From Mesorhizobium sp. J428 (GTDB taxonomy: Bacteria > Pseudomonadota > Alphaproteobacteria > Rhizobiales > Rhizobiaceae): a stretch of DNA of 64,000 bases. Under the pieces are notes generated by a model, which was not told where the DNA came from, did no database searches, and saw nothing but the letters and a program-made list of their open reading frames with translations. Of this stretch, positions 5,533 to 59,266 are shown one piece after another (within the stretch, counting starts at the first letter, position 1; every line of letters begins with the position of its first letter). A program made the position numbers and the translations under genes. The stretch covers positions 2,642,001 through 2,706,000 of the forward strand of contig NZ_JAJOMX010000001.1 of assembly GCF_024699925.1 (NCBI RefSeq), given 5' to 3'.

Positions 5533-8500
5533 ATGTTTTCCGGGCCGATGCGAGCAGCGTACCTAGCCCAAACCTGGTTGAGATTTGCGTTGTGCCTCGC
5601 TCTGCTTGGCGCAGCGGTGGCGCTTGTCGCGCGGCCGGCGCTGGCGCAGGAGCCGAAGAGCCTGAACGGCGTGGCGCTGGTCATCGGGCAGTCGGCCTAC
5701 GAGAACATCGCGCCTCTGCCCAACCCGGCCAACGATGCGCGCGAGATGGTGAAGCTGCTGACCGATCTCGGCTTCGATGCGCGCGGCGTCACGGACCGGG
5801 ACGCCAGCCGGCTGCGGCGCGACATCGAGCGCTTCGTCGAGGACGCCGCGGAGGCGGACGTGGCGCTGCTCTATTATTCGGGACACGGCATCGAGGCCGC
5901 CGGCGACAACTGGCTGGTCCCGGTCGACGCCGGCCCGGCGGCGCTGGAGTCGGCGGAGGAGTCCTTCATCTCGCTGGCCTCGATCGTCGAGGAGCTGAAG
6001 AAGTCCGTGCCGGTGACGATCGTCCTGCTCGACGCCTGCCGCACCAACCCGTTCCCGCCGGACGCGACGCTGAAGCGCACGCCGACCGGCTCGGCCGAAC
6101 CCGTCTCCGCCGGAGGTCTCGGCGCGGTGCGCGGTGTCACCGGCTTCAAGGCGCAGACGCCTGCCAACGACAATCTCGGCATGGTGATCGGCTTCGCGGC
6201 CGAACCCGGCCAGCCGGCGCTCGACGGCGAGCCGGGCGCCAACAGCCCCTATGCGGCCGCGCTGATCCGCCATCTCGCGGCGATGAAGGGGCTGGAGTTC
6301 GGCCAGGTCATGCGCATGGTGACGGAGGAGGTCTATCTCGCCACCGGCGCGAAGCAGCGGCCGTGGATGAACGAGAGCCTCAGGCGCCTGCTCTATTTCG
6401 GCCTCGCGCCGGAGGAACCCGAGGGCATCGACGCCACGATCACCGGCGAGCGGCGGCAACTGCTGCTCACCATGGCCGACCTGCCCGACTTCGAGCGCGT
6501 CCAGGTCGAGCAGGTCGCGCTGCGCGAGGGCGTCAAGCTCGATTCGCTCTACGGCGTGCTGCGCGCGCTGGGCGAGGAGCAGACGCCCGGCAATCCGGAG
6601 GAACTGGGCAAGCTGCTCGACGCTCAGGCCGGCCGGCTGAAGTCGATGCTGTCGGAGCGCGCGGCGCTGCATACCGACGATCCCGAACTGCTGGCGCTCG
6701 CCAACGCGGCCGACCGCGCCATCGGCGAGGGCGCGATCGTCGCGGCACGGCGCTTTCTCGACGACGCGGTGGCGAAGGTAGAGGCGGGGAGCGCCGCGGT
6801 CGACGCGCTGGAAGACCAGGTGAAGGAAAAGCGCCTCGCCGACGCCGCGATCTACGCCAAGCGCGCCGACGCATCGGCTCTCGTCTTCGATTTCCGCGCT
6901 GCGGCGGCCGATTATGCCAAAGCCTTCGACCTCGTCGAGAAATGGGACGACCGGCTGGCCTGGAATTACAAGAACCTTGAGGCGGAGGCACTGCGCGGCC
7001 AAGGTGCTGCCACCGGCGACCGCGCGGCTCTCGACGGCGCGCTGACCGCCTACCAGGCGGCTCGACATGCTGCCCAACGGCGAGAAGGGCCGGGACTGGG
7101 CGATTACCCGCAACAACATGGCGGTGGTGCTGAACACGATCGGCGAGCGTGAGGAAGGCACCGAGACGCTCAAACGCGCGCTCGACACGTTCCGCGAAGC
7201 GATGGAGATCTTCAAGGCCGAGGGCGACGACACCAACTGGGCCGCCGCGCAGAACAATATCGGCAACATCCTGCTCGCCATGGGCGGGCGATCTGGCGAC
7301 CTGGCCATGACGCGCGATGCCGTCGCCGCCTATCGCGCAGCGCTGGAGAAGCGTTCGCGCGACAAGGTTCCGCTGGACTGGGCGTCGTCGCATAACAATA
7401 TCGGCATCGCGCTGTTCCAGCTCTCGCAGCCCACTGGCGACGTGGCGGGGCTGGTCGAGGCGGAGGCGTCCTATCGCGCCGCGCTGGAGGTGCTGACGCG
7501 CGATTCCGCACCTGTCGACTGGGCGCTGGTGCAGAACAATCTCGGCAATACGCTGAACGCGCTCTCGCTCGCGCGCAACGATCCGGAGCCGGCGAAACAG
7601 GCGGCCGAGGCCTTCAAGGCGGCCATGACCGTGCGCACCAAGGAGACCTGGCCGCTGCAGTGGGCCAGCAGCCAGCTCAATCTCGGCAATTCCTACACCG
7701 CGCTCGGCCGCCACGAGCTCGGCACGGCGAGTATCGAGGAAGCGCGCGGGGCCTACGAGAACGCGCTGACCATCTTCGACCGCCAGAAGACGCCGCTCGA
7801 CTGGGCGTCGGTGCAGAACAATCTCGGCTCCTCGTGGCAGACCATCGGCCAGCGCACCCAGGACCTGTCCGCACTGCAGAAATCGCTGGACGCCTTCCAG
7901 GCGGCGCGGCGCGTCTACAAACGCAAGGATTTTCCGTCAGACTGGGCGATGACTGAGAACAATGCCGGCAACACGCTGCGGCTGATGGCGGTGGTGTCGG
8001 GCGACCCAAAATATTACCGCGAGGCGATCGAGGCCTATGACCTGGCGCTGCGCGAATACACCCGCGAGCGCGCGCCGATGCAGTGGGCGCTGGCGACGTC
8101 GAGCATGGGCGACGCGATGCAGTTCCTCGCCGCGACGGAAGAGAAGACCGACAATCTCCACGCTGCCGTGGCCGCGCGCCGCGCGGCGCTGGAGGTCCTG
8201 ACCGCGGAGAATGCGCCGGTGGACTGGGCCAATGCGCAGAACGGCCTCGGCATGTCGCTGCTCAACCTCGCCACGCGCGAACAGAATGCGGCCTTCCTGC
8301 TCGAGGCCAAGGCCGCGTTCGAGGCGACGACCAAGGTCTTCACCCGCGAGACGCAGCCGGTGCAGTGGGCCTTCGCGCTCAACAATATCGGCGACGTGCA
8401 CTGGTCGCTCGCCGCCCAGGGCGGCGGCGCGGCCGACTACCGCCAGGCGCTCGCCATGTTCGAGCAGGCGAAGGAAGGCTTCGCGGCGGCAGGCTACGCG

Positions 8501-8560
8501 CCGCTGATCCAGCTCGTCGACCAGAAGATCGACCTGGTGAAGCAGAACCTGGCGAAGTGA
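5533..8560 (+). CDS. Secreted caspase-like (peptidase C14) protein with TPR-like repeat array; frameshift near 7055-7062
   Basis: Corrected length is about 1009 residues. There is a signal peptide (hydrophobic run ending ARPALA-QEP near residue 39), then a caspase p20-like domain (about 43-260). The domain carries the dyad His118 (YYSGHG) and Cys169 (LLDACR). A linker with TPR-like helices follows, then about ten repeats of 47 residues whose signature is DWAxxQNNLG. The reading frame breaks in the text TAYQAA/LDMLPNG; restoring two bases rejoins the halves (upstream half stops at 7152, downstream half reads to 8560). ATG 5548 is an alternative start. Bacterial orthocaspases of this build are usually Arg/Lys-specific or non-catalytic scaffolds; the substrate here is unknown. 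The frameshift is probably a sequence error. Confidence 0.82.
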
Positions 8561-8626
8561 GCCGGAAGTGATTTTCGGCTCGGTGCGGGGCAATTGACTC
8601 TCATTACTGGCGCAATACCCCCGACC

Positions 8627-8644
8627 CCTCCCCACAAGGGGAGG
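8627..8644. repeat. Small hairpin related to the rhizobial palindromes
   Basis: CCTCCCC-ACAA-GGGGAGG is a 7-bp stem lying between the ends of the convergent caspase-TPR gene and cysK. Its core matches the inner hairpin of the larger elements elsewhere in the window, so it may be a remnant. It could also terminate transcription, but no U-tract follows on either strand. Confidence 0.5.
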
Positions 8645-8681
8645 AGGATCTGGGCGTGCGCCTATGGGGCAGTCCGGCGTG

Positions 8682-9659
8682 TCAGCCGAGCCCGTCGAAC
8701 AGGACCGTCGACAGATACCGCTCGGCGAAGGAGGGGATGATGACGACGATGTTCTTGCCGGCATTTTCCGGCCGGCGGCCGACTATGGTTGCCGCCTGCA
8801 GCGCGGCGCCCGAGGAGATGCCCACCGGCACGCCTTCCAGCCGGGCGACGAGGCGGGCATTGGCGAAGGAATCCTCGTTGGAGACGGTGACGACCTCGTC
8901 ATAGACCGTGGTGTCGAGGATCTTCGGCGCGAAGCCGGCGCCAATGCCCTGGATCTTGTGCGGGCCGGGCTGGCCGCCCGAGAGCACGGGCGAGGCTTCC
9001 GGCTCGACGGCGACGACGCGGACGCCGGGCTTGCGCGCCTTGAGCACCTGGCCGACGCCGGTGATGGTTCCGCCGGTGCCGATGCCGGCGACCAGGATGT
9101 CGACGCCGCCCTGCGTGTCGTTCCAGATCTCCTCGGCCGTCGTCTTGCGATGGATCTCCGGATTGGCCGGATTCTCGAACTGCTGCGGGATGATCGCGCC
9201 GGGGATGGTCTGCACGAGCTCCTCGGCCTTGGCGATGGCGCCCTTCATGCCCTTGGCGCCTTCGGTGAGCACGAGCTCGGCGCCGAGCAGCGCAAGCATC
9301 TTGCGGCGCTCCATCGACATCGTCTCGGGCATGGTCAGGATCAGCCGGTAGCCCTTGGCGGCCGCGGCGAAGGCGAGCGCGATGCCGGTATTGCCCGAGG
9401 TCGGCTCGACCAGCGTCGTCTTGCCGGGGACGATGCGGCCGTCGGCCTCCATAGTCTCGATCATCGCCACGCCGATACGGTCCTTGACGCTGGCGATCGG
9501 GTTGAAGAATTCGAGCTTCGCCAACAGGTTGGCGACGATCCCCTTCTCCTTGGCGAACTTGTCGAGCCGCACGATCGGCGTGTCGCCGATGGTCTCGGTG
9601 ATGGAATTGTAGACCCTGCCGCGGCCCGGCACGTGCGTGGCGCTCGCATGCTTGTTCAT
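8682..9659 (-). CDS. cysK: Cysteine synthase A (O-acetylserine sulfhydrylase)
   Basis: PLP enzyme that makes L-cysteine from O-acetyl-L-serine and sulfide. The 325-residue protein has Lys59, the Schiff-base lysine, in NPIASVKDR. It also has the substrate loop TSGNTGIA and the phosphate-binding GTGGTITG. I chose the start MNKHASATH (ATG at 9657-9659) because AGGGAGAA lies just upstream; the open frame continues about 73 codons further but without a family-like sequence. The gene is monocistronic and divergent from the adenosine kinase gene. The shared 284-base spacer contains a repeated TAGAATTTC motif. Confidence 0.96.
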
Positions 9660-9745
9660 CGTTTTCTCCCTGAGGCGGTTTGCAGCACCATAGTCTCTCG
9701 CAGGCCGAAATCCGAGAGGCGAACGATCGCGCTGGGCCCCTTCTG

Positions 9746-9790
9746 TAGAATTTCGTCCCAAGAACGCGCGGAACCTAGAATGAAATTCTA
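9746..9790. promoter_or_regulatory. Tandem TAGAATTTC-type operator candidates upstream of cysK
   Basis: TAGAATGAAATTCTA (9776-9790) is a perfect 6-bp inverted repeat around GAA. Thirty bases away, TAGAATTTCGTCCCA (9746-9760) repeats its left nine bases exactly in the other reading. Spacing of about three helical turns suggests a dimeric or higher-order regulator. The sites are 87-130 bases upstream of the cysK start and about 155-200 from the adenosine kinase start. The regulator is unknown. Confidence 0.5.
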
Positions 9791-9943
9791 TGGCTTGGAT
9801 ACCCGCTGCCTTGCGGGCACCGTTCGGATGGCAACGGAAGGCCCGGCGGAGTCGTCCGAGGCGCTTGCAATCCGTCATCCACGCGCTAAACCCGTGGTCG
9901 ACAGGCGCCCCGTGGATGGACGGCGCGAAGAGCGGGACGCTTC

Positions 9944-10936
9944 ATGAGTCAGTATGACGTGCTGTGCATCGGCAACGCGATCGTGGACATCATCGCGCGG
10001 TGCGAGGAGAGTTTTCTCGTCGACAATGCCATCATCAAGGGCGCGATGAACCTGATCGATACCGATCGCGCCGAACTTCTCTACAGCCGGATGGGGCCTG
10101 CGATCGAAGCCTCCGGCGGCAGCGCGGGCAACACGGCGGCCGGCGTCGCGAGCTTCGGTGGCAGGGCCGCCTTCTTCGGCAAGGTGGCGAAGGACGCGCT
10201 GGGCGAGATCTACGCGCACGACATCCGCGCCCAGGGCGTTGCCTTCGACACCAAGCCGCTCGATGCGCCGCCGCCCACTGCGCGCTCCATGATCTTCGTG
10301 ACCGCCGACGGCGAGCGCTCGATGAACACCTATCTCGGCGCCTGCGTGGAGCTTGGACCCGAGGATGTCGAGGAGGACAAGGCGGCCGGCGCCAAGGTCA
10401 CCTATTTCGAGGGCTATCTGTGGGACCCGCCCCGCGCCAAGGACGCGATCCGGCTGACCGCGAAGCACGCGCACGCCGCCGGCCGCGAAGTGTCGATGAC
10501 GCTGTCCGATTCCTTCTGCGTCGACCGCTATCGCGACGAGTTCCTCTTCCTGATGCGTTCGGGAACGGTCGACATCGTCTTCGCCAACGAGAGCGAACTG
10601 AAGGCGCTCTACCAGACGTCGTCCTTCGAGGCCGGGCTGGAGGCGATCCGCAAGGATTGCAAGCTCGCAGCCGTGACGCGCTCGGAGCTCGGCTCCGTCG
10701 TCGTGCGCGGCGACGAGACCGTCGTGGTGGACGCAATCGAGATTGGCGAACTGGTTGACACGACGGGTGCGGGCGATCTCTACGCCGCCGGTTTCCTGTT
10801 CGGCTACACGAGCGGCCGCTCGCTTGCGGATTGCGGCAAGCTCGGCTCTCTCGCGGCGGGGCTGGTGATCCAGCAGGTCGGCCCACGCCCCCGCCAGAGC
10901 CTGCGCCAGGCGGCCGTCGAGGCGGGGCTGCTCTGA
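9944..10936 (+). CDS. Adenosine kinase, PfkB/ribokinase family
   Basis: 330-residue sugar/nucleoside kinase. It has an N-terminal ribokinase start (DVLCIGNAIVDI), the substrate-side GGSAGNTAAG motif (58-67), and the PfkB catalytic signature DTTGAGDLYAAGF with GAGD at 275-278. The long NTYLGACVEL segment and overall length match rhizobial adenosine kinases, which phosphorylate adenosine to AMP and so help clear adenosine made from S-adenosylhomocysteine. Other PfkB substrates cannot be excluded. It is divergent from cysK, a suggestive but unproven link to sulfur-amino-acid metabolism. Confidence 0.82.
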   Translation: MSQYDVLCIGNAIVDIIARCEESFLVDNAIIKGAMNLIDTDRAELLYSRMGPAIEASGGSAGNTAAGVASFGGRAAFFGKVAKDALGEIYAHDIRAQGVAFDTKPLDAPPPTARSMIFVTADGERSMNTYLGACVELGPEDVEEDKAAGAKVTYFEGYLWDPPRAKDAIRLTAKHAHAAGREVSMTLSDSFCVDRYRDEFLFLMRSGTVDIVFANESELKALYQTSSFEAGLEAIRKDCKLAAVTRSELGSVVVRGDETVVVDAIEIGELVDTTGAGDLYAAGFLFGYTSGRSLADCGKLGSLAAGLVIQQVGPRPRQSLRQAAVEAGLL

Positions 10937-11014
10937 GCAGGGCTTGACAAGGCGGGCCGCTGCGGCAGTTCATGGGTGCGGGCCGGCATGGCAGCGCACC
11001 CAGGGAGGTCGCCA

Positions 11015-11317: not shown

Positions 11318-11431
11318 CGATCAGAGACTGTCTGGAAGTTCTGCTCTGACGGCCATCTGAGGGCGCTTTCTGCGCTTCCGGTGCTCACGGACCCGTTTCC
11401 GAAACCACCACCAGCTGACTCGCCAGAGCTC

Positions 11432-11989: not shown

Positions 11990-12043
11990 GCTTCAGTTCC
12001 CAGATACAACAGCCGTGTTTGTATCGAATCACCGTTTCAGCAG

Positions 12044-12068: not shown

Positions 12069-12134
12069 GTTAAAACGGTTACGTGAACGTTGCTGTCGAA
12101 ATGCGTCAGAAATGCGAAAACCGTGTGGCGAAGG

Positions 12135-15892: not shown

Positions 15893-16051
15893 CGCCCCCC
15901 TCTGTCCTGCCGGACATCTCCCCCACAAGGGGGGAGATCGGCCGTCACAGATGGTTTCGCTTTCCTCTGCAGCATTGGGAGTTGGACGACGTCGGCGGTT
16001 AGCCGATCTCCCCCCGTGTGGGGGAGATGTCCGGCAGGACAGAGGGGGGCG
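15893..16051. repeat. Large palindromic intergenic element, family C, copy 1
   Basis: The arms are inverted repeats of about 55 bases: the left begins CGCCCCCCTCTGTCCTGCCG and the right ends with its complement. Each arm carries an internal hairpin (CATCTCCCCC...GGGGGGAGAT). The central part, about 50 bases, is unrelated to the second copy at 35312-35470, while the arms match that copy almost base for base. It is located between rph and the VOC gene. Confidence 0.9.
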
Positions 16052-16090
16052 TGACGGAGCACGTCGCCAGGCTCCTGCAAGGAGCTACCG

Positions 16091-16501: not shown

Positions 16502-17145
16502 TGAGGGATCTCGGCAAGCGTATCGTCGTTGCCAGCCACAATGCCGGCAAGCTGGCCGAATTCGCCGACCTTCTGGCGCCGTTCGGCCTGGAGGCGAGGT
16601 CTGCCAAGGAATACGGCCTGCCGGAGCCGGAGGAGACCGGCACGACCTTCGAGGAGAACGCCTACATCAAGGCGCATGCCGCGGCGCAGGCCACCGGCCT
16701 CCCGGCCATGTCGGACGATTCCGGCCTGGTGGTGGATGCGCTGGACGGCGCCCCCGGCGTCTACACCGCCGACTGGGCGACGAAGCCCGACGGCACGCGC
16801 GACTTCATGATGGCGATGCAGAAGACGGAGGATGCGTTGCAGAAGGCCGGGGCGAGCGATCCGGCGCAGCGCACCGGCCGTTTCGTCGCCGTGATCTGCC
16901 TGTGCTTCCCCGACGGCGAGGCGGAGTATTTTCGCGGCGAGGCCGAGGGCACGCTGGTCTGGCCGCCGCGCGGAACCAGCGGCTTCGGCTACGATCCGGT
17001 CTTCCTGCCCGAGGGCCATTCGCGTACCTTCGGCGAGATGACGGCCGAGGAAAAGCACGGCTGGAAGCCCGGCATGGAAACCGCCACCTCGCACCGGGCG
17101 CGCGCCTTCAAGAAGTTCGCCGAGGCGAGACTGGGGCTGAAGTGA
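16501..17145 (+). CDS. rdgB: Non-canonical purine NTP pyrophosphatase (dITP/XTP)
   Basis: House-cleaning enzyme hydrolysing dITP, ITP and XTP to the monophosphates. The 214-residue HAM1/RdgB protein has the N-terminal [14 protein letters not shown], then [13 protein letters not shown], the catalytic [18 protein letters not shown], the GRFVAVI strand, and [15 protein letters not shown]. It ends with [10 protein letters not shown]. All key segments are intact. It overlaps the preceding VOC gene and, by four bases (GTGA), the hemW start. Confidence 0.97.
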
Positions 17146-18316
17146 CCGGCGCCGGCACCCCCTCACCGACCCCGGCTTCGGCGTCTACCTGCACTGGCCG
17201 TTCTGCGCGGCGAAGTGCCCGTATTGCGACTTCAACAGCCATGTCCGCCACCAGCCACCCGACCAGGCGCGGTTCGCGCAGGCCTTTCGGCGCGAGCTGG
17301 AGCATTTCCGCGTCCGCACCGGACCGCGCGAGGTGACGTCGATTTTCCTCGGCGGCGGCACGCCGTCGCTGATGGAGCCTGAGACGGTCGGCGCGCTGCT
17401 CGACGCGGTGGCTGGCCTCTGGACCGTGCCGGAGGGCATCGAGGTGACGCTGGAGGCCAATCCCTCCTCGGTCGAGGCCGGGCGCTTCCGTGGTTACCGC
17501 GCCGCCGGCGTCAACCGCGTCTCGCTCGGCGTCCAGGCGTTGAACGATCCGGACCTGCGCTTCCTCGGTCGGCTGCACGACGTGGCGGAGGCCAAGCGTG
17601 CCATCGCGCTGGCGCGCGACATCTTTCCGCGGCTTTCCTTCGACCTGATCTATGCCCGCCCCGGCCAGTCGCTCGACGCCTGGCAGCGTGAACTGGGCGA
17701 GGCGATCGACCTCGCGGCCGACCACCTGTCGCTCTACCAGCTCACCATCGAGGAAGGCACGCGCTTCCACGTGCTTCACGCGGCCGGCAAGTTCGTCATG
17801 CCAGATCCCGACCTTTCGGCGGACCTCTATGCGCTGACGCAGTCGGTGACGGCCCAGCGCGGCCTGCCGGCCTACGAGATCTCCAACCATGCAAGGCACG
17901 GCGCGGAAAGCCGCCACAACCTCGTCTACTGGCGCTACGGCGAATATGTGGGCGCCGGTCCCGGCGCGCATGGGCGTTTCGTCGAGGACGGCCGCCGCGT
18001 CGTCACCTTCACCGAGAAGATGCCGGAGACCTGGGCCAATCTGGTCGAGGCCAACGGCCATGGCGTGGTAGGCGGCGAGGTGCTCCACCGGAGCGAGGAG
18101 GCCGACGAGTTCCTGATGATGGGCCTGCGGCTCGCCGAAGGCATCGATCTCGCCCGCTACGAGGACATGGCCGACCAGCCGCTGTCCTCGAAGCGCATCG
18201 CCGTGCTGCAGGGCGAGGGGCTGGTCGAATCCCTAGGCAACTCCCGGCTGCGTGCCACGCCCACCGGCATGATCGTGCTCGACGCTCTCGTTGCCGATCT
18301 TGCGCGCACCGATTAG
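17142..18316 (+). CDS. hemW: Radical-SAM haem chaperone HemW-type protein; frameshift in a C-run at 17158-17162
   Basis: Corrected length is 391 residues. GTG 17142 overlaps the rdgB stop. The reading frame from that start is lost at a run of five C; adding one C restores continuity into [18 protein letters not shown], which holds the three [4Fe-4S]-ligating cysteines (CxxxCxxC). Downstream the TIM barrel is intact: [39 protein letters not shown] and GAGPGAHGR. HemW was long called an oxygen-independent coproporphyrinogen III oxidase homologue and acts as a haem chaperone. The homopolymer position makes a sequencing error the likely cause. Confidence 0.9.
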
Positions 18317-26366: not shown

Positions 26367-28896
<2,530 letters not shown>

Positions 28897-33059: not shown

Positions 33060-35236
33060 ATGACCGACCGCATCGACATCGACGGATTGAAGATCGCGCG
33101 TGAGCTGCATGACTTCGTAGCCAACGAGGCGCTGCCCGGCACCGGTATCGATGCGGCGAAATTCTGGGCCGACTTTTCAGCCATCGTTCACGACCTCGCG
33201 CCGAAGAACCGGGCTCTGCTTGCCCGCCGCGACGAGCTGCAGGCCAAGATCGACGCCTGGCACCGCGACAATGGCGCGCCGACCGATCTCGCTGCCTACA
33301 AGGCCTTCCTGTCCGACATCGGCTACCTGCTGCCCGAAGGCGCGGATTTCTCGGTCGCCACGGCGAATGTCGATCCCGAGATCGCGACCATCGCCGGCCC
33401 GCAGCTCGTCGTGCCGGTCATGAATGCGCGCTATGCGCTGAACGCCGCCAACGCCCGCTGGGGCTCGCTCTACGACGCGCTCTACGGCACCGACGCGATC
33501 CCCGAGACGGACGGCGCGGAGAAGGGCAAGGGCTACAATCCGGTGCGCGGCGCCAAGGTCATCGCCTGGGCGCGAGGTTTCCTTGACGAAAGCGCGCCGC
33601 TCGACGGTGCGTCCTGGACGGACGTCAAGTCGTTCGACGTGGCCATGGGTCGCCTCGCCGTGACGCTCACCGACGGCCGCATGACCGGGCTGGTCGACGG
33701 CGCCCAGCTGGCCGGCTATCTCGGCTCGCCGTCGGCGCCCTCGCAGTTCCTGCTGCGCAAGAACAACCTGCTGGTCGAGGTGCTGATCGACGCCACCTCG
33801 GCGATCGGCAAGGACGATCCCGCCAACATTTCCGATGTCTGGCTGGAATCGGCCATAACCACGATCATGGACTGCGAGGATTCGGTCGCCGCCGTCGACG
33901 CCGAGGACAAGGTGGTCGTCTACCGCAACTGGCTCGGCCTAATGAAGGGCGATCTCACCGAAGAGGTGGCCAAGAGCGGCAAGACCTTCACCCGCAAGCT
34001 CAATCCCGATCTCGACTATATCGCGCCGGACGGCACCGCGTTCGAGCTCAAGTGCCGCTCGCTGATGCTGGTGCGCAATGTCGGGCACCTGATGACCAAT
34101 CCGGCGATCCTGCTGAAGGACGGCTCGGAAGTGCCGGAAGGCATCATGGATGCCTTCGTCACCGCCGCGATCGCACTGCATGACATCGGTCCCAATGGGC
34201 GCCGGAAGAATTCCCGCGCGGGCTCCATGTACGTCGTGAAGCCCAAGATGCACGGCCCCGACGAGGTCGCCTTCGCCTCCGAGATCTTCGCCCGCGTCGA
34301 GGATGCGCTGGGCATGGCCCGCAACACGATCAAGATGGGCATCATGGACGAGGAGCGCCGCACCACGGTGAACCTCAAGGAGGCGATCCGCGCCGCGAAG
34401 GAGCGGGTGGTGTTCATCAACACCGGCTTCCTCGACCGCACCGGCGACGAGATGCACACCTCGATGGAAGCCGGCCCGATGATCCGCAAGGGCGACATGA
34501 AGGCCGCCCCCTGGATCCAGGCCTACGAGAACTGGAACGTCGACATCGGGCTGGCCTGCGGCCTGCAGGGCCGGGCGCAGATCGGCAAGGGCATGTGGGC
34601 GATGCCGGACATGATGGCGGCGATGCTGGAGCAGAAGATCGCGCATCCGAAGGCCGGCGCCAACACCGCCTGGGTGCCGTCGCCGACCGCGGCGACGCTG
34701 CATGCGACGCACTACCACAAGGTCGACGTCAAGGCGGTGCAGGAGAAGCTGAAGAGCCGCCCGCGCGCCAAGCTGGACGACATCCTCTCCGTGCCGGTGG
34801 CGATCCGCCCCAACTGGACGCCCGAGGAGATCCAGCGCGAGCTCGACAACAATGCCCAGGGCATCCTCGGCTATGTCGTGCGCTGGATCGACCAGGGCGT
34901 CGGCTGCTCAAAGGTGCCTGATATCAACGACGTCGGCCTGATGGAGGACCGCGCGACGCTGCGTATCTCCTCGCAGCACATCGCCAACTGGCTGCATCAC
35001 AAGGTCTTACCGAGGACCAGGTGACCGAGACGATGAAGCGCATGGCCGGCGTGGTCGATCGCCAGAACGCCGGCGACCCGCTCTACCGGCCGATGGCGCC
35101 GGATTTCGCGGGCTCCATCGCCTTCCAGGCCGCCAGCGACCTGGTCTTCAAGGGCCTTGCCCAGCCAAACGGCTATACCGAGCCGGTGCTGCATGCGCGG
35201 CGGCTGGAGCTGAAGGCGCGGCAGAAGTCGGCTTAA
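33060..35236 (+). CDS. glcB: Malate synthase G; one-base deletion near 35005-35009
   Basis: Condenses glyoxylate with acetyl-CoA to malate (glyoxylate cycle/glycolate use). Corrected length is 725 residues, the usual size of isoform G. Recognisable pieces: [53 protein letters not shown] and [21 protein letters not shown]. Then [19 protein letters not shown] and the catalytic-loop segment [18 protein letters not shown]. After HHKVL the frame is lost; one added base restores [17 protein letters not shown] and the rest up to the stop at 35236. The break is near the C-terminal plug and is probably a sequence error. Confidence 0.95.
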
Positions 35237-35311: not shown

Positions 35312-35470
35312 GCGCCCCCCTCTGTCCTGCCGGACATCTCCCCCACAAGGGGGGAGATTGGCTGTCGCGGCGACCTTCGCCAATTTTCGGCGTTGCGGGA
35401 GAGGCAGTGGCGGCGGAATTGCCAATCTCCCCCTTGTGGGGGAGATGTCCGGCAGGACAGAGGGGGGCGC
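35312..35470. repeat. Large palindromic intergenic element, family C, copy 2
   Basis: The same arms as the element at 15893-16051 (CGCCCCCCTCTGTCCTGCCG and its complement, with the CATCTCCCCCACAAGGGGGG hairpin). The central region is different. It lies between glcB and tsaB; the right arm ends 34 bases before the tsaB start and so is within its leader. Confidence 0.9.
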
Positions 35471-41678: not shown

Positions 41679-42752
41679 TCAGCTCGCGTGCTTGAGGCTC
41701 AGTCCGCTGGCCTGGTCGAAGATCGTCAGCTTGTCCGGATTCCAGCCGAACCGCACCTCGTCCTCGATCGACAGGCTGGTGCGGGCGGGAACCGTCGCGC
41801 GCAGCATGTTGTCGCCGACGCGCAGCGTCAGGATCTTCTCGACGCCGTGGTTCTCGACATCGTGCACCTTGGCCGTCACCGGCGCTCCCTGTTCCACCTG
41901 CACGTCCTCCGGGCGGATGCCGAAGGTGAGCGGCCGGTCCGCCGCGCCGGCGGCAGCGGCTCCCGCGGGCAGTTCGAACCCCGGCGCGACCACGGCGCGG
42001 CCCGCGACGAGGCGGCCGTTGACCAGGTTCATTGGCGGCGAGCCGACCGAGCGGGCGACGAAGGTGTTCTTCGGGTTGGCGTAGATCTCCTGCGGCGTGC
42101 CCACCTGCACCAGCGCGCCGTTGTTCAGCACGCCGATCTTGTCGCCCATCGACATCGCCTCGATCTGGTCGTGGGTCACGAACAGGAAGGTCTGGCCGAG
42201 ATTCATCTGGATGTTCTTGAGCTCGGTGCGCAGTGCCTCGCGCAGCTTGGCGTCGAGCGCCGACAGCGGCTCGTCCATCAGGAACACGCGCGGCTTGCGC
42301 ACGATCGCGCGGCCGATCGAGACGCGCTGCATCTCGCCGCCCGACAGCCGGTCGGTCTTGCGCTGGAGCAGGTGCTCGATCCGCAGCGTCTTTGCCGCCT
42401 TGGCCACCCGCTCGGCGATCTCGCTGTCCGGCACGCGCCGCAGCTTGGATTTCAGCGGGAATTCGAGGTTCTGCTTCACCGTGTAGCGCGGGTAGAGCGA
42501 GTATTGCTGCAGAACCAGCGCCACGTCGCGCTCCGCCGCGCCCCAGTCGGCCACGTCGACGCCGTCGATGAGAACGCGTCCCTCGGTGGGCTTTTCGAGG
42601 CCGGCGATGATGCGCAGCGTCGTTGTCTTGCCAGCGCCGGTCTCGCCGAGCAGCACGAAGAACTCGCCGTCGGCGATCTCGAGGTTGAGGTTCTTGAGCG
42701 CGGTGTGGGCGCCGAAGGTCTTGGTGACGTTGTCGAGACGGATATGGGCCAT
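41679..42752 (-). CDS. Carbohydrate ABC transporter ATPase, MalK/UgpC-like (second ATPase)
   Basis: 357 residues. Walker A is GETGAGKTTT, the Q-loop is VLQQYSLYP, the signature LSGGEMQR and Walker B VFLMDEP, with the switch His in FVTHDQIEAMSMGD. A C-terminal regulatory TOBE/OB domain covers about 240-355. The residue after the Walker A Gly is Glu (GETGAG) where GPSGCG is usual, and its sister ATPase keeps GQSGCG. It is the last gene of the ABC operon, separated from the sister by palindrome family D. Two non-identical ATPases suggest a heterodimeric motor. Confidence 0.92.
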   Translation of the reverse strand: MAHIRLDNVTKTFGAHTALKNLNLEIADGEFFVLLGETGAGKTTTLRIIAGLEKPTEGRVLIDGVDVADWGAAERDVALVLQQYSLYPRYTVKQNLEFPLKSKLRRVPDSEIAERVAKAAKTLRIEHLLQRKTDRLSGGEMQRVSIGRAIVRKPRVFLMDEPLSALDAKLREALRTELKNIQMNLGQTFLFVTHDQIEAMSMGDKIGVLNNGALVQVGTPQEIYANPKNTFVARSVGSPPMNLVNGRLVAGRAVVAPGFELPAGAAAAGAADRPLTFGIRPEDVQVEQGAPVTAKVHDVENHGVEKILTLRVGDNMLRATVPARTSLSIEDEVRFGWNPDKLTIFDQASGLSLKHAS

Positions 42753-42783
42753 CAGAATGTTCCTTCGGTCGCGTCTACGCCTG

Positions 42784-42913
42784 CGCCCCCTCCACCGCTT
42801 CGCGGTTCCCCTCCCCCGTAAACGGGGGAGGATCTGCGTCGCGGCCGGCCGCAGCCTTGGATCCTCCCCTGCGAAGCGGGGGAGCGGGACCGCCGAAGGC
42901 GGTGGAGGGGGCG
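42784..42913. repeat. Large palindromic intergenic element, family D
   Basis: Outer arms CGCCCCCTCCACCGC (42784-42798) and its exact complement (42899-42913). Inside are CCCTCCCCCGTAAACGGGGGAGG and a second CCTCCCC...GGGGGAG pairing. The unit lies between the two ATPase genes of one operon and will fold in the transcript. It is related in style, not in sequence, to families A and C. Confidence 0.85.
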
Positions 42914-42921
42914 GCAGGCGC

Positions 42922-44029
42922 TCACAGCCTCACCCCCAGGCTCTTGCCGCTGTCCGTGTCGAAGAAGTGTGCCTGCGCCGGGTCGATGCGGGCATAGACC
43001 TTCTCGCCCGCCCTCGGCACGAAGCCGGCGCGGGTGCGTGCCCGCAGCATGGTCGAGCCCACCGCCAGGTCGACGATGTCGTAAGCGCCGAGCGGCTCGA
43101 TGATGTGTGCCTCGACCGGCAGGTAGCCCTGGCGCTCCTCCCGCTCGACCAGCACGCCCTCCGGCCGGATGCCAAGCTTCAGCGCGCCCGGTTTGTCCGC
43201 ATGTCCGTTGAGCCTGCCCGCCAGTTCCTTCGGGAAGGCGAAGCCGTTCGCCTCTCCCCCCATCATCACGGTCGCCCCCTTGGCGTTTGACGTCACCGTA
43301 ACCGGGGCGACATTCATCACCGGGCTGCCGACGAACTGGGCGACGAACAGGTTGGCCGGGTGGGCGTAGACCTCCTCGGGCGCGCCGATCTGCTGCAGCA
43401 CCCCCTCGTGCATGATGACGATGCGGTCGGCGAGGCTCATGGCCTCGACCTGATCGTGGGTGACGTAGATCGTCGTCGATCCCTGCTGGAGATGCAGACG
43501 CTTGATCTCGGCCCGCATCTCCTCGCGCAGCTTGGCGTCGAGCGCGCCGATCGGCTCGTCCATCAGCATCGCCTTCGGCCGGCGCACCAGCGCGCGCCCG
43601 ATCGCCACGCGCTGCATGTCGCCGCCCGACAGCGCCGACGGCTTGCGGCCGAGCAGGTCGGTGATCCGCAGCACCTTGGCGATCTCGCACAGAACGGTCG
43701 ATGCCCGTCTTGTCGATGCCGGTGGCCCTGAGCGGGAAGGCGATGTTCTCGTAGACCGTCATGTGCGGATAGAGCGAGAAGGACTGGAACACCATCGCGA
43801 TGTCGCGGTCCGACGCCTTCATGTGCTGCACCGGCTTGCCGTCGATGAGGATATCGCCCTCGTCGATGGTCTCCAGCCCGGCGATGGCGCGCAGCGTCGT
43901 CGTCTTGCCGCAGCCGGACTGGCCGAGAAGCACGATGAACTCGTTGTCGGCGATGGCGAGATTCATGTCCTTGACGACCTGGACGTCGCCGAACCACTTC
44001 TGCACGCCGCGAAGCTCGATCTGGGTCAT
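42922..44029 (-). CDS. Carbohydrate ABC transporter ATPase, MalK/UgpC-like (first ATPase); frameshift near 43683-43690
   Basis: Corrected length is about 369 residues. Before the break: GQSGCGKTTTLRAIAGLE (Walker A), MVFQSFSLYPHMTVYENIAFPL (Q-loop). After the break: IAKVLRITDLLGRKPSALSGG, LSGGDMQR, AMLMDEPIGALDAKLREE, YVTHDQVEAMSLAD, and the C-terminal TOBE region. The break occurs in GIDRSVR/EIAKVL, where GTGCGAGATC lacks one CG pair relative to the expected GTGCGCGAGATC. Both halves are intact and colinear. The ATG overlaps the stop of the small membrane protein gene upstream. Confidence 0.9.
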
Positions 44030-46179: not shown

Positions 46180-47494
46180 TCACTTGATCCGGTTGTAGCT
46201 TCTTGAACGTGGCGTTCCAGTCGGCCGCCAGCGCGTCGAGCGCTTCCTTGGCCGTGCCCTGGCCGGCGGTGATGTACGGATAGATGCGCTGGTTCATCTG
46301 CATCAGCAGCTCCGCATATTCCGGCGTCGCCCAGAAGTCCTTCACCTTGAACATGGTCTCGTAGAAGGCCTTGTTGTAGGGCGTCGCATTCTGGAATTCA
46401 GGCGATTCCAGCACCTTGGCACTCGCGGTGTAGCCGCCGAGCTCTGCCCAGCGCTTCTGGGTCTCGTCCTTGATGAACCATTCCAGGAACTTCATCGCCT
46501 CTTCCTTGTTCTCGGAATAGGAGACGACGGAGATGCCCTGGCCGCCGAGCGCGGCGAACTGGTCGCCGTCCGGTCCCGCCGGATTCGCGAAGAAGCCCGT
46601 GACCTTGGCGTTGGGGTTCGAGGCCTCGTTCACCAGCGCCGGGAAGAAGGCGAAGTAGTTCATGCTCATCGCCGCCAGGTTCTCGGTGATCGCCTGGTTG
46701 TTCTCAACGAAGAAGGTCTTGGCCCAGCCCGGAGGCGTGAAGCCGTAGAGCTCGCGATAGGCCTCGAGCGCCTTGACGTTCTTGTCCGAGTTGATGATCC
46801 CGTCGACCTTGTAGGTCGCATAGTCGCCGAGTTCACCGCCATACGAGAAGATCGCGTTCTCGACGCCCATCACGAGGCCGTCATAGGAATTGTCGGTGTA
46901 GATCGCGACGCCGTAGCGCTTCTCGTCCGGACGGTGGAAGAACTCGGCGATGTCGCGCAGTTCCTTCCAGGTCTTCGGCGGAGCGAGGTCGTAGCCGTAT
47001 TTGGCCTTGAACGCCTCCATCTCCTTGGGGTCCTCGAACCAGTCCTTGCGATAGGACCAGCCGACCGCGTCGCCCTCGGCCGGGATGGACCAGTATTTGC
47101 CCGAGTTGGACGGATACTCTGCGTAGTATTTCACCGTCGCCGGGGCCATCACCTCGCCGAGCTTGTGCTTGTTGAAGAACTCGGTCAGGTCGACATAGTG
47201 GCCGGCCTCGGACGCCGCGCCGATCCACTGCGAGTCGCCGACGACCATGTCGTAGGCCGAGCCCTTCGCGTTGAATTCCGTGAAGGCCTTCGTCTGGAAA
47301 TCCTGCCACGGCGTGGTCTCGACCGTGACTTTGACGCCGGTTTCCTTTTCGTACTCGTTGACGAGTTCCTGCAGGTAGTTGGCCGGATCCCACTCCGCCC
47401 AGAAGATCGTCAGTTCCTGCGCGTGCAGCGACGAAACGCTGCCGGCAAGCGTAAGGGCCAATCCGGCCAAAAGGCCGGTCACTTTCCTGTGCAT
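46180..47494 (-). CDS. ABC transporter substrate-binding protein, sugar type; one-base insertion at 46198
   Basis: Corrected length is 437 residues: signal peptide (MHRKVTGLLAGLALTLAGSVSSLHA), then a solute-binding family 1 domain. The start of the mature protein is QELTIFWAEWDPANYLQELV, followed by VVGDSQWIGAASEAGHYVDL and YWSIPAEGDAVGW. The C-terminus is AADWNATFKK followed, after deleting one base, by YNRIK and a stop at 46180-46182. Without correction the frame runs hundreds of codons into the permease gene. The ligand is unknown; large aromatic residues in the predicted cleft suit a sugar or polyol. Promoter and operator candidates lie upstream. Confidence 0.92.
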
Positions 47495-47673
47495 GTCATT
47501 TCCTCCCTGTCGTGCCTCGATCGGGCCCGTGCGCGGCCTGTCCGCGGCGCCGGCTCCCGTTGGCGGCTCTTCGCCGCCTCGTCCCGCCCTGGTCTCCTCC
47601 CGAGGCGAGCAGATTGAGATGACCGATCAGTTCTCCGCGGCAGACGCCGCGCTGGCCGGACATTCCCCTAAAC

Positions 47674-52388: not shown

Positions 52389-53252
52389 ATGATCCGCGTC
52401 TCGATCCCCCTGGACACCCCGACAGAGCCCGTCATGCAGCGCGTGCAGGCGACGGGGCAGCTCGCCGTCGCCGCGCATGGCGGCCGCACGCGCCTGGAGC
52501 GGCTGTTCCAGCAGGGGGCGGCCAAGATCAGGATGCCCGTGACGGCGGCCGGCCCGCTCGAGGCGATCCTGATCAACACCGCCGGCGGCATGACGGGCGG
52601 CGACCGGCTCGAATGGGAGATCGGGGTCGGCGCTGATGCCGCGGCCGTCGTGACCACGCAGGCCTGCGAGAAGGCCTACCGCTCGGCCGGCGGCGTCGCG
52701 CATATCCGGACCTCCGCACGCGTGGCGGCGGGCGGGCATCTCGCCTGGCTGCCGCAGGAGACGATCCTCTACGACCGCTCCGCGCTGCATCGCCGGCTGG
52801 ATGTCGACCTCGCGCCGAGCGCAACGGCCCTCATCGTCGAATCCGTCATCTTCGGCCGCCGCGCGATGGGCGAGGTGGTGACGACCGCGCAGTTCCGCGA
52901 TGTCTGGCGCATCCGCTCCGGCGGCCGCCTCGTCCATGCCGACGCGATCGCGTTCGACGGCGATGTTGCCGGCCAGTTGTCCCACGCTGCGGTCGCGGGG
53001 GGCGGCACCGCTTTCGCCACCGTGCTGCTGATTGCGCCCGACGCGGAAGAGCGCCTCGACCAGGCGCGGAAGATCGTCGGCGAGGCGGGCGGGGTGAGTT
53101 TCTGGTCGCTGCGCGGCGATGCGCAGGCGGCGAATGGCAAGCTTCTTGCGAGGCTCGTCGCAAGCGATGGCTACGACTTGAGGCGGCGGCTGGTTCCCTT
53201 GCTGGGCCTGCTCAACGCGCAGGCAGCTTTGCCTAAAGTCTGGTCAACATAG
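52389..53252 (+). CDS. ureD: Urease accessory protein UreD
   Basis: Urease chaperone that binds the apo-urease trimer and, with UreF and UreG, delivers nickel. About 287 residues from ATG 52389 (MIRVSIPLD). Conserved segments: [63 protein letters not shown] 52434 (MQRVQATG) would give 272 residues, nearer some rhizobial relatives, so the start is uncertain. It is the first gene of the cluster; ureA follows after 14 bases. Confidence 0.93.
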
Positions 53253-53266
53253 CATTCGGAGGGCGC

Positions 53267-53569
53267 ATGAATCTGACACCACGGGAAAAGGACAAGCTGC
53301 TGGTCGCCATGGCGGCGATCGTCGCGCGCAAGCGGCTGGAGCGCGGCGTGAAGCTGAACCACCCGGAGGCCATCGCCCTGATTACCGATTTCGTCGTGGA
53401 AGGCGCGCGCGACGGCCGCTCGGTCGCCGATCTGATGCAGGCGGGCGCCCATGTCCTCACCCGCGACCAGGTGATGGACGGCGTCGCCTCGATGATCCAC
53501 GACATCCAGGTCGAGGCGACGTTCCCGGACGGCACCAAGCTCGTCACCGTGCACGAGCCGATCCGGTAG
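53267..53569 (+). CDS. ureA: Urease subunit gamma
   Basis: 100 residues, the standard gamma-subunit length. It opens [20 protein letters not shown], followed by [24 protein letters not shown] and the [30 protein letters not shown] signature. It forms the (alpha-beta-gamma)3 enzyme with UreB and UreC that hydrolyses urea to ammonia and carbamate. AGGGCGC lies before the ATG. Intact. Confidence 0.97.
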
Positions 53570-53576
53570 AGCCGGC

Positions 53577-53828
53577 ATGCTCGAGCTGCGCCCGAACTGC
53601 GAGTGCTGCGACCGCGACCTGCCGCCGGAGAGCGCCGACGCGATGATCTGCACCTTCGAGTGCACGTTCTGCAGCGACTGCGCGGAGCGGACCCTTGGCG
53701 GCACCTGCCCGAACTGCGGCGGCGACCTCGTGCGTCGGCCCCTGCGGCCGGCGGCGATGCTTCAGAAATATCCGGCCTCCACGCGCCGCGTGCTGAAGGC
53801 CGAAGGCTGCCCGCAGCGGGCGGCTTGA
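53577..53828 (+). CDS. DUF1272 zinc-ribbon-type protein
   Basis: 83 residues with eight cysteines in paired CxC/CxxC arrangements: MLELRPNCECCDRDL, CTFECTFCSDCAE and GTCPNCGGDL, a double zinc-binding module. DUF1272 proteins of this length are frequent beside metabolic genes, and their role is unknown. It starts eight bases after ureA and is followed by the nickel permease, so it is transcribed with the urease genes. Why it was recruited is unknown; metal handling is a guess. Confidence 0.88.
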   Translation: MLELRPNCECCDRDLPPESADAMICTFECTFCSDCAERTLGGTCPNCGGDLVRRPLRPAAMLQKYPASTRRVLKAEGCPQRAA

Positions 53829-53858
53829 CCGGCGACTGACAGAGAAGGGGACGACACA

Positions 53859-54449
53859 ATGTTGAAGCGGATCGGATTGGCCTTCGTGGGGCTCGGCACC
53901 GGGGTAGCCCCGGCCTTCGCGCATCTCAACCCGGCCGAGCACGGCTCGTTCACGGCAGGTTTCACGCATCCGCTGTTCGGCCTCGACCATATCCTGGCGA
54001 TGGTGGCAGTCGGCCTTTGGGCCACCCTGCTCGCCCGGGGCACCGACCGCAAGGCGGTCTGGCTGGTGCCCGCGGCCTTCGTCGGGACCATGCTCGCCGG
54101 CTTCGGCGCGGCCATGGCCGGAGCGCCGCTGCCTTTCGTCGAACCGGTGATCCTCGCCTCGGTGGTGGCCATCGGCCTGCTGGCGGCGGTCGCGCTCAGC
54201 GTTCCGACCGTTGCGGCCATGGCGATGGTCGGCTTCTTCGCCTTCTTCCACGGGCACGCGCATGGCGGCGAGCTTGGTGAGGCCGGCGCCTGGCCGTTCG
54301 CGATCGGTTTTGCTGCGGCGACCGCGTTCCTGCATGCAGCCGGCGTCCTGCTCGGCATCGGGCTTGGCGGTCGCTACGGACAGGCCGCGGCGCGCGCAGC
54401 CGGCGCGCTGGCAGCGGCGGGCGGGCTCTGGCTCGCCTTCGCGGGCTGA
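53859..54449 (+). CDS. HupE/UreJ-type nickel permease
   Basis: 196 residues: a cleavable signal or first helix ([21 protein letters not shown]) and about six further membrane helices. The family metal motif is [12 protein letters not shown] (HPxxGxDH), and a second His-rich segment is [13 protein letters not shown]. HupE/UreJ proteins carry nickel into the cell for hydrogenase or urease; context within the urease cluster favours UreJ. Start by GAAGGGGA upstream. Confidence 0.92.
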
Positions 54450-54460
54450 GGGGGATTGCC

Positions 54461-54781: not shown

Positions 54782-54792
54782 CGACCGGGGGC

Positions 54793-55257
54793 TCAGCCCG
54801 CCGGCTTCGCGGCCGCGTAGACGACGACGCGCCGGTCGTCGCCGATCTCGACCGCGAGCACGTCGCGCATCAGCACCTGCCGCGAATCGATGGCGTGGAA
54901 GAGCAGCGCATTGCCCTCGATCTCCTGCCGCAGCGAAGCGATCTCGCTTTCCCGCTCCTTCAGCTTGGCGTCGATATCGGAGGGAGGCCCGCCCTCAGCC
55001 GCCGTGGCGTCGGGCAGGAAGACGATGTCGACGCTCCTGACGTCGGTGACCTTGCGCACCGCTTCCGCGCTTTCACCTGCCCTGTCGATCGCCTTTACGA
55101 TCCTGCCGTGGTCGGCGCTGGCCGAACTCTCCTGCTCGCGGATCTCCGAGCCGACGATGGCGTCGATCGCGCCTTCGGCGTCCAGTCCCTGCGCGAACGC
55201 GCCGCCTGCTGCGGTCGTCGCCGCGAGCAGGGCCATGCACATGGCTCGTCGCATCAT
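54793..55257 (-). CDS. Secreted hypothetical protein, inserted between ureB and ureC on the opposite strand
   Basis: 154 residues: signal peptide (MMRRAMCMALLAATTAAGGAFA), then a mixed helical domain with a predicted coiled coil (DIDAKLKERESEIASLRQEIEG). A C-terminal beta segment (VLMRDVLAVEIGDDRRVVVYAA) ends the protein. GAGG lies six bases before the first ATG. Antisense to the urease operon, it would oppose read-through from ureB to ureC. I do not recognise the family. Composition and the plausible signal peptide support a real gene. Confidence 0.75.
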   Translation of the reverse strand: MMRRAMCMALLAATTAAGGAFAQGLDAEGAIDAIVGSEIREQESSASADHGRIVKAIDRAGESAEAVRKVTDVRSVDIVFLPDATAAEGGPPSDIDAKLKERESEIASLRQEIEGNALLFHAIDSRQVLMRDVLAVEIGDDRRVVVYAAAKPAG

Positions 55258-55371
55258 CTCTCACCTCGTCTCGTTCGTGTCCGGATCATGGAAAACCGTC
55301 CGCATCGCGGATGGTTCCCCTCGCGATCCGGCATGTCCCCGTTTCCGCACGCTCACACCGGAGCCTGACCC

Positions 55372-57084
<1,713 letters not shown>

Positions 57085-57183
57085 AACTCATCAACTGCGG
57101 ATTGGTTCTGACCCACGGCTCTCAAGTCAGCACTTACTTATTTTTTGCTTCCAGAAACGTTTCACTGGCCGCATGATGCGCCC

Positions 57184-57645
57184 ATGAACAAGGTCTTCCG
57201 CCTTCAGAAGTTGACGCCCTATGAGTCGGACTATGCTCTCTGGTGCGCCGAGCAGGGCGCGCTGCTGCGCGAGGGCCGTGTCGACGCGCTCGATCGCGAA
57301 AACCTTGCCGAGGAGATCGAGAGCTTGGGACGGAGCGACAGGCGGGAGATCGAGAACAGGCTGAAGGTGCTGTTGGTCCACTTGCTGAAATGGAGTTATC
57401 AGCCGGAAGGCCGAAGTGGAAGCTGGCGTTCGACGATCCGGGGGCAACGGCAGGGGATCGCGAAGATAATCAAGGAAAGTCCGAGTCTTCGCGGCCATCC
57501 ATCGAAGGCACTTGCCGAGGAATACGCCTACGCGGTTCCGGAGGCTGCCGACGAAACCGGCCTTCCCGAAACGGTGTTCCCCACGACCTGCCCCTTCACG
57601 ATCGAACAGGTTCTCGACTTGAACTGGCTCCCCGACGCAGGATAG
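57184..57645 (+). CDS. DUF29 domain protein
   Basis: 153 residues. The DUF29 pattern is YESDYALWCAEQGALLREGRVDALDRENLAEEIESLGRSDRREIE, then HLLKWSYQPEGRSGSW and a C-terminal segment ending CPFTIEQVLDLNWLPDAG. Helix-rich and soluble. Function unknown; DUF29 proteins are common in cyanobacteria and Alphaproteobacteria. The start is MNKVFRLQKL. It lies 99 bases after ureC; that gap is AT-rich with a T-run (TATTTTTTGC) but no clear hairpin, and holds no other gene. Confidence 0.9.
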   Translation: MNKVFRLQKLTPYESDYALWCAEQGALLREGRVDALDRENLAEEIESLGRSDRREIENRLKVLLVHLLKWSYQPEGRSGSWRSTIRGQRQGIAKIIKESPSLRGHPSKALAEEYAYAVPEAADETGLPETVFPTTCPFTIEQVLDLNWLPDAG

Positions 57646-57680
57646 ATGCCCCGGCAGTCAAGTGCCTGGAGGAGACCTGC

Positions 57681-57977
57681 ATGATCTACGTCGTCGCCAC
57701 CATCGAGCTGAAGTCCGGCTCGGTCGATGCCATCCGCGCCGCGGCTGTGGCCTGCCGGGCCGAGACGCTGAAGGAGGATGGCTGCATCGCCTATGAGATG
57801 TTCTCCAGCCTGGAGAATCCCGACAAGCTGGTCGTGGTCGAGAAGTGGGCGACGCGCGAGGCGCTGACGGCGCATTCGAAGCAGCCGCACCTGAAAGCCT
57901 GGCGCGAGGCGAGCGCGCCGTTCACCACGTCGCGTAAGATCGAGATCGTGCACCCCGAGAAGGTCGAGGAGTTCTGA
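57681..57977 (+). CDS. Antibiotic biosynthesis monooxygenase (ABM/YgiN) domain protein
   Basis: 98 residues of dimeric ferredoxin-like fold: MIYVVATIELKSGSVDAIR, EDGCIAYEMFSSLENPDKLVVVEKW and HLKAWREASAPFTTSRKIEIV. The KEDGCIAYE segment is the common signature. Members may oxidise quinols or simply bind aromatic compounds; the biological role here is unknown. GGAGGA precedes the ATG at good spacing. It lies in the urease cluster but has no known link to urease. Confidence 0.88.
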   Translation: MIYVVATIELKSGSVDAIRAAAVACRAETLKEDGCIAYEMFSSLENPDKLVVVEKWATREALTAHSKQPHLKAWREASAPFTTSRKIEIVHPEKVEEF

Positions 57978-58035
57978 GCTTCGCCGGAGGCCGCGACGGG
58001 TTGATGCGACCCGCCTGCGGCGCTATCGATCCGTC

Positions 58036-58626
58036 ATGGAACCGCACGCCGCAGCCGCCGACGTCTTCCCCCATGTCCGCGTCGTGCTCGGCATGGTCGT
58101 GGGGCTCGGCGTAACGCGCATCCTGTCGGGCTTCGCGCGCATCGTGCAGCACCCGACGCAATACCCGCTCTATCCGGTGCATCTTGCCTGGTCGGCGATG
58201 CTGCTGCTGGTGCTGGTGCATTTCTGGTGGTGGCAGTTCGGCCTGCACGCCATCCAGCACTGGACCTTTCCGATCTACCTGTTCGTGATCGCCTACGCGA
58301 TCCTGCTGTTCCTGCTCTGCGCGCTGCTCTTTCCCGATTCGATGCGGGACTACGAGAGCTACGAGGACTATTTCTACGCGCGGCGCGGCTGGTTCTTCGG
58401 CATCCTCGCTGCAACCTACGTGCTCGACGTGATCGATACGATGATCAAGGGCGAGGAGCATTTCGCCAAGTTCGGAACCGAATATCTGGTGCGCACGCCG
58501 ATCTTCTTCGCGCTGAGTCTCGTCGCGGCGATGACCAGCAGCCGCCGTTTCCACCTCGCCTTTGTTGCCTTGGCGCTGATCTACCAGATAGTCTGGATCC
58601 TGCGCCTGTTCGACGACATCGGCTGA
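58036..58626 (+). CDS. Hypothetical integral membrane protein
   Basis: 196 residues with about five hydrophobic segments: VVLGMVVGLGVTRILSGF, HLAWSAMLLLVLVHFWWW, FPIYLFVIAYAILLFLLCALL, GILAATYVLDVI and FFALSLVAAMTS. A charged loop (SMRDYESYEDYFYARRGWF) lies between the third and fourth. I do not recognise the family. ATG 58036. It is placed between the monooxygenase-fold gene and a GST gene inside the urease cluster. Confidence 0.72.
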   Translation: MEPHAAAADVFPHVRVVLGMVVGLGVTRILSGFARIVQHPTQYPLYPVHLAWSAMLLLVLVHFWWWQFGLHAIQHWTFPIYLFVIAYAILLFLLCALLFPDSMRDYESYEDYFYARRGWFFGILAATYVLDVIDTMIKGEEHFAKFGTEYLVRTPIFFALSLVAAMTSSRRFHLAFVALALIYQIVWILRLFDDIG

Positions 58627-58646
58627 GGCGCTTTCAGGCGGGAGGG

Positions 58647-59266
58647 ATGAAGCGAATTACCAGGCCGTCGGATCTCCGGGCTCGCGCCTGACGCGGGTGA
58701 CGTGGATGCTGGAGGAGCTCGGCCAGCCCTACGAGATCGTGCGGGCCAAGCAGTATTCGGACACGATGCACCGCTACAATCCGACCGGAAAGATGCCGGC
58801 GCTGATCGACGGCGATTTCGTGCTCACCGACTCGGCCGCCATCTGCGCCTATCTCGGCGAGAAGCATGCCGACCGGGGCCTCGGGCCGAACCCGGGCATA
58901 GAGGGCCGGGCGGAGATGACCTCCTGGATGCTCTATGCGCTGTCCGAGTTCGAGCAGCCGATGTGGAACAAGCTGAAGCACCGTTTCCTGTTGCCAACCG
59001 AACTGCGGGCCGAGGTGGCGCCTTGGGTCGGGCACGAATTCGCGGCCGAGATCAAGGGGCTGGAAGCCAAGCTCGCGGGCCGGCCCTATGCGCTTGGCAA
59101 CCGCTTCTCGGCGGTCGACGTGATCCTTGGCCATTGCGGCCAGTGGGCCAGGAGCGGCAAGTTCGAGGTGGCGTCGAAGCCCGTGGCGGACTATTTCGAG
59201 CGCGTGCTCTCGCGTCCGGCGCTGGCGCGGGCAAGGCAGCGCGAGCAAGAGGTGCAGGCCGCATGA
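58647..59266 (+). CDS. Glutathione S-transferase family protein; probable frameshift near 58660-58672
   Basis: Corrected length is about 206 residues. ATG 58647 gives MKRIT, while the body of the enzyme is in another frame that has no upstream ATG or GTG other than the codon inside RVTWMLEEL. Adding one base in the first dozen codons joins MKRIT to [18 protein letters not shown], which supplies the active-site Ser and first helix of a GST. Downstream [29 protein letters not shown] and [10 protein letters not shown] are intact. The stop overlaps the ureE ATG by four bases. Alternative: a truncated enzyme starting at GTG 58697. Confidence 0.78.

Follow-up and report, generated by a model that had tools for sequence, protein, structure and literature searches.

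Gene breaks in the assembly of Mesorhizobium sp. J428 as very probable residual indel errors, bound in part to the words GTAC and GANTC

Genes that are interrupted by a gain or loss of one or two bases raise the question of whether the cell or its sequence is at fault. In the window, that is, the whole stretch of 64,000 nucleotides analysed here (G000:C1:2642001-2706000), a preliminary description made from the sequence had named seven genes of this kind and had taken the breaks as assembly errors rather than as marks of pseudogenes. The assembly under study (G000) is 5.88 Mb long and consists of five contigs, with a completeness of 99.53% and a contamination of 3.52%. It was compared with G003, a close relative with about 91-93% DNA identity that is collinear with it across most of the window and shows 89-96% in the longer alignments there, and a third genome, G006, was used to judge the breaks called between these two. 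The best among 80 matches listed for residues 1-448 of gyrB belong to Aliihoeflea, Mesorhizobium and Aminobacter (85-89% identity). Positions 1-4957 of the window are inverted with respect to G003, and the longer alignments elsewhere in the window run in the same direction.

Broken genes in the window

For each locus, intact G003 proteins were searched against the window with the pieces left unjoined, and the positions of net gaps were taken from the DNA alignment of G000 with G003. The loci are as follows, including an eighth site which was found in this analysis and rejected.

5395..8560, + strand: gene for a caspase (Peptidase_C14)-TPR protein, whose frame changes at about 7056-7061, net -2
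17142..18316, + strand: hemW, with an uninterrupted frame through the body and a doubtful start region on a C-run at about 17156
26406..28896, + strand: gyrB, whose frame changes at 27761-27763, net +1; G003 has GANTC at the site
33060..35230, + strand: glcB (malate synthase G), whose frame changes at 35006-35008, net -1
42925..44029, - strand: ABC transporter ATPase, whose frame changes at 43682-43686, net -2
46199..47536, - strand: ABC solute-binding protein, net +1 at 46198; G003 has GTAC at the site
53171..54335, - strand: rejected candidate, break at 53570
58658..59266, + strand: GST, net -1 at 58658; G003 has GTAC at the site

Departures from an intact gene are real at six of the seven named loci and lie within the gene at four; in hemW the body is open and the leader alone is doubtful. 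The internal frame switches of the caspase-TPR, gyrB, glcB and ABC ATPase genes, judged against G003 and G006, lie where the preliminary description had placed them, and each G003 protein is split there into two frames: residues 100-574 and 577-1075 of caspase-TPR (gap of -2 at 7061), 1-452 and 453-829 of gyrB (net gap of +1 at 27761), 1-649 and 650-724 of glcB (gap of -1 at 35008) and 1-116 and 116-369 of the ABC ATPase (gap of -2 at 43686). Family motifs had been reported on both sides of every break, and in a domain scan this is true with caspase-TPR and gyrB, which carry family domains on either side of the switch. The ABC ATPase has a single domain that is cut (profile positions 1-80 upstream, 101-136 downstream), and the C-terminal domain of glcB ends at profile position 56 of 118 in a scan that covered the upstream piece and not the short downstream piece. 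Five of the named genes (those for caspase-TPR, glcB, the ABC ATPase, the binding protein and the GST) are each in one piece in G006, where gyrB is also open across the break site. The ABC ATPase gene is one of two adjacent genes of this kind at 41694-44029 on the - strand, which are paralogues with 47% identity.

The two loci at which the damage lies at a gene end had been described as broken genes, the GST as a probable one, and the gaps are there, at the ends of bodies that are largely intact. The binding protein aligns to G003 over residues 2-447 of 452 and its frame continues as a 776-aa ORF; therefore, the loss is limited to the last five residues. For the GST, the alignment covers residues 5-206 of 206; the -1 at 58658 takes away the likely start codon, and a separate +1 gap lies at 58647, just 5' of the break. 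The hemW gene aligns to the G003 protein as one piece (4-387 of 387); a 327-aa ORF was not accepted as its true extent, being merely the first listed start within the open frame. From the preceding stop to the start of the conserved body, hemW has no in-frame ATG, GTG or TTG, and the C-run may accordingly hold a frame fault, although the layout of this region varies among the relatives. Between the upstream gene and hemW, G003 carries other, repeat-like sequence of about 130 bp that is absent from the window; in G005, sequence similar to these 130 bp adjoins the start, and in G004 the start overlaps the stop of the upstream gene. Weaker matches to other places in G003 occur at window positions 15895-16057 and 35315-35467. 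A further claim, that several breaks lie in short G/C runs, did not hold, since a run of at least four is found in the window at hemW only, and none of the caspase-TPR, glcB and ABC ATPase breaks has GTAC, GANTC or a G/C run directly at the site.

The break at 53570 was rejected as an assembly error because G005 and G006 are split at the identical residue; the G002 gene aligns over 1-387 as one piece and has five internal stops. At 55526-55813 on the - strand of the window, the Rfam family 5_ureB_sRNA (RF02514) matches with 111 bits, antisense within a 570-aa ORF that carries Urease_alpha and amidohydrolase domains, and this match may be a mere reflection of conserved coding sequence.

Breaks across the chromosome and the words at which they occur

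The comparison was extended to four regions of G000 totalling 924 kb, which gave 767,233 aligned columns against G003. C1:3500001-3540000 was dropped since it had no alignment within 60 kb of G003, just 16 kb of the 40 kb at C1:3000001 could be aligned, and C1:800001-820000 was used as query only. Isolated gaps of 1-2 nt were considered where the surrounding stretch had an identity of 85% or more, and a break was called if one genome kept the phase of third-position mismatches on both sides together with an open frame. Among 230 such gaps, 54 break G000 only, 5 break G003 only and 171 break neither or both (54 against 5, p = 2e-11); the window cases at 17156, 46198 and 58658 stand outside the 54. 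Breaks are present in all four regions and fit a single common rate (chi-square p = 0.30), which is about one per 14 kb aligned and roughly ten times that of G003.

G006 allowed a judgement on 17 of these 54 breaks, of which 15 are open and 2 split, and 37 have no match there. Two of the 15 open matches have just 64-65% identity and may be paralogues. The split sites are C1:4423231 and 53570, and the count of 54 still includes both. With two of 17 testable calls wrong and two of 15 matches weak, 54 is therefore an upper count, and the real figure lies somewhat lower.

The contrast is weaker in a coarser table of ORFs, where 47 of 350 genes scored in G000 and 28 of 371 scored in G003 have inner frameshift gaps; part of the reason is that run-on ORFs formed by broken genes of G000 are held against G003. 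With any frameshift gap counted, the figures are 90 of 350 and 71 of 371. Since many of the gaps lie in the outer tenths of ORFs (48 of 101 in G000, 53 of 82 in G003), the table was restricted to the comparison of nonsense codons and third positions. Substitutions cluster weakly near the breaks (59 of 320 up to 4 bases away, 143 of 960 at a distance of 9-20 bases) in a set of 40 breaks from an earlier caller which had no isolation filter, so that diverged stretches are mixed in.

The breaks favour particular short words. When the contexts of both genomes are joined, 12 of the 54 breaks have GTAC, 8 have GANTC, 9 have a G/C run of at least four, a class which an inserted C can by itself create, and 25 have none of these; the expected shares are 0.5%, 1.0% and 3.4%, respectively. 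Word-bound errors are the newly found aspect of these breaks, and G/C runs account for a minority only. Of 3000 patterns tested for enrichment, the top three at the 35 insertion breaks in the G003 context are CGANTC (7 breaks; background 0.4%), CNAATC (6; 0.35%) and GANTC (7; 0.8%), and with a tighter margin GANTC is still found at 5 of the 35 (0.5%). For all 54 breaks in the G000 context, AGTAC occurs at 5 (background 0.02%) and GTAC at 8 (0.3%). A site-based test gave enrichments of GTAC at breaks of 33-fold (5 matches, G003) and 58-fold (7 matches, G000). At the 171 other isolated gaps, which played no part in picking GTAC, the word is enriched 22.6-fold (11 matches, G003) and 16-fold (6 matches, G000).

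In addition, GTAC is depleted in the assembly itself, with 309 occurrences in G000 and 403 in G003. This ratio of 0.77 is the lowest among the 4-mers with more than 300 occurrences in G003, and the fifteen other palindromic 4-mers have ratios of 0.99-1.18. The observed/expected values for GTAC are 0.40 in G000, 0.51 in G003 and 0.53 in G006. CTAG is likewise under-represented in the samples of the three genomes (0.23-0.26). GANTC is not depleted (1079 in G000, 1022 in G003). Gaps in or beside GTAC are equally frequent whichever genome supplies the sites (27 of 403 for G003, 21 of 309 for G000), so this count alone cannot assign the fault to G000; the fault is assigned to G000 because its GTAC total is the lower one and because of the frame calls. 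Gaps in or beside CTAG also amount to about 5%, and one of the five G003 breaks adjoins GTAC.

CcrM is the GANTC methylase of the alphaproteobacteria. G000 has a gene of this family with an open frame of 389 aa and N6_N4_Mtase and RAMA domains, which scores 643.6 bits with the NCBIfam CcrM model, below the model cut-off of 830, and G003 also carries a CcrM-like gene. Searches with the profiles PF18755, PF01555 and PF02086 assigned no responsible enzyme to GTAC. Two D12-family DNA methylase genes of G000, to which no specificity is assignable, look split (C1:806239-806909 and C1:2380501-2381064), and G003 has an open 270-aa frame matching this family at C4:2244192. Among the methylation motifs published for Helicobacter pylori J99 is GTAC, apparently as one of the m6A motifs.

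Sequencing error, gene decay and other explanations

NCBIfam scans of 30 intact G003 counterparts were used to name the genes broken outside the window, and 12 of the 30 had no NCBIfam family at E <= 1e-20. The broken genes include recF, rpoN, sufB, murF, proS and those for penicillin-binding protein 1C and a sarcosine oxidase alpha family protein; a dnaA reading frame is broken near residue 49, before its matched domain, which starts at 78. A second copy was searched for in the cases of gyrB and proS. The prolyl-tRNA ligase gene (proS) is the sole full copy found by profile search of the assembly and is cut at residues 87-89. The preliminary description had proposed looking for a second intact gyrB, and there is one gyrB in the assembly; the second family match is a paralogue with 41% identity, which is probably parE-like. 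A cell in which gyrB, proS, murF and sufB are all broken would not be viable, and therefore the sequence is at fault and not the cell.

Real gene decay, as in the pseudogenes of a degenerating or hypermutating lineage, would accord with the presence of every break in the sequence as given, but it is very improbable, provided that the strain grows, in view of the essential genes broken, with gyrB and proS in single copy. Neither the excess of nonsense codons and loss of constraint nor the sparing of essential genes by which pseudogenes would be recognized was found: nonsense codons without a frameshift occur in 10 of 350 genes of G000 and in 16 of 371 of G003, and the pooled share of mismatches at third positions is similar, 0.75 where genes have frameshift gaps and 0.78 where they have none, in what is a noisy gene set. 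Rescue of the proteins by programmed frameshifting or other recoding, for which the site would be conserved in relatives and in favour of which nothing was found, is scarcely conceivable, because 15 of the 17 testable sites are open in G006 and gyrB is open, with 809-890 aa, in 19 of 20 relatives, the gyrB of G001 being in two pieces that are split elsewhere; the shift is thus not conserved. If the cell cut its own DNA at GTAC and rejoined it with small indels, both the indels at this word and its lower number than in G003 would follow. Such real scars are nevertheless highly unlikely, as the breaks at GANTC and elsewhere would require another cause and essential genes are broken. The frame breaks are very probably residual indel errors of the assembly and not mutations, because they are spread through the sampled assembly, break essential genes and favour specific short words. 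The interpretation in the preliminary description was therefore right, and it is sharpened here to an indel-prone assembly whose errors are partly bound to GTAC and GANTC, a reading that the excess of breaks in G000, the essential genes among them, the ordinary level of nonsense codons, the open sites in G006 and the clustering at words support.

How such errors arose is a separate matter. The assembly would be a long-read one, probably from the Oxford Nanopore platform, whose basecaller would misread sites carrying modified bases. The insertions at GANTC would then reflect sites modified by CcrM, whose gene is open, a putative enzyme would modify GTAC as another word, and the remaining breaks would be ordinary run-length and other indel errors. 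The errors would in this way be a fossil readout of DNA modification in the strain, with CcrM at GANTC and a mark that the basecaller did not know at GTAC, where about one fifth of the sites, measured as the deficit against G003, would be corrupted; we give this reading about an even chance. Ordinary long-read indel error without base modification, in contexts that are badly handled in any DNA, has a considerable chance as well, a little short of even. It agrees with the breaks at G/C runs, with the 25 of 54 at no listed motif and with the result that matches to the three methylase profiles included no GTAC enzyme. However, the enrichment of GANTC coincides with an open CcrM gene, GTAC is a lone strong outlier, and G003, which has a CcrM-like gene but may come from a different platform, has few breaks.

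Related cases and consequences

Brucella is a related alphaproteobacterium. For nanopore assemblies of this genus, one report ties GANTC and CcrM to two potential errors (PMC12392509); the motif and the presence of a CcrM gene are shared with the present case, but here GANTC was found in G003 at 7 of 35 insertion breaks. In Listeria nanopore assemblies, modification-mediated errors at GCAGC and GCTGG are described together with a system encoding a methyltransferase and with modifications for which there had been no training (PMC10687267). The errors stay at short motif words in both cases; unlike those in Listeria, the words here are GTAC and GANTC, the visible effect is a frameshift and the pattern is known from the assembly alone. 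Kastor (PMC12007338) and Homopolish (PMC8011154) deal with frameshifts that give false pseudogenes or with systematic nanopore errors, which are detected against relatives, and the openings of their abstracts contain no motif analysis of breaks of the kind made here.

As biology, the breaks are an ordinary artefact. If 54 breaks in 767 kb are scaled to the whole, perhaps several hundred genes would be wrong in any protein set or pseudogene count derived from this assembly. gyrB is a common taxonomic marker, and it is among the genes that are wrong in this assembly. The motif pattern shows a curator which type of data to request. Moreover, it suggests a way of flagging modification errors without reads, through the enrichment of motifs at frame breaks as measured against a relative, and if GTAC is indeed modified, an epigenetic mark of the strain would be recoverable from the finished sequence alone.
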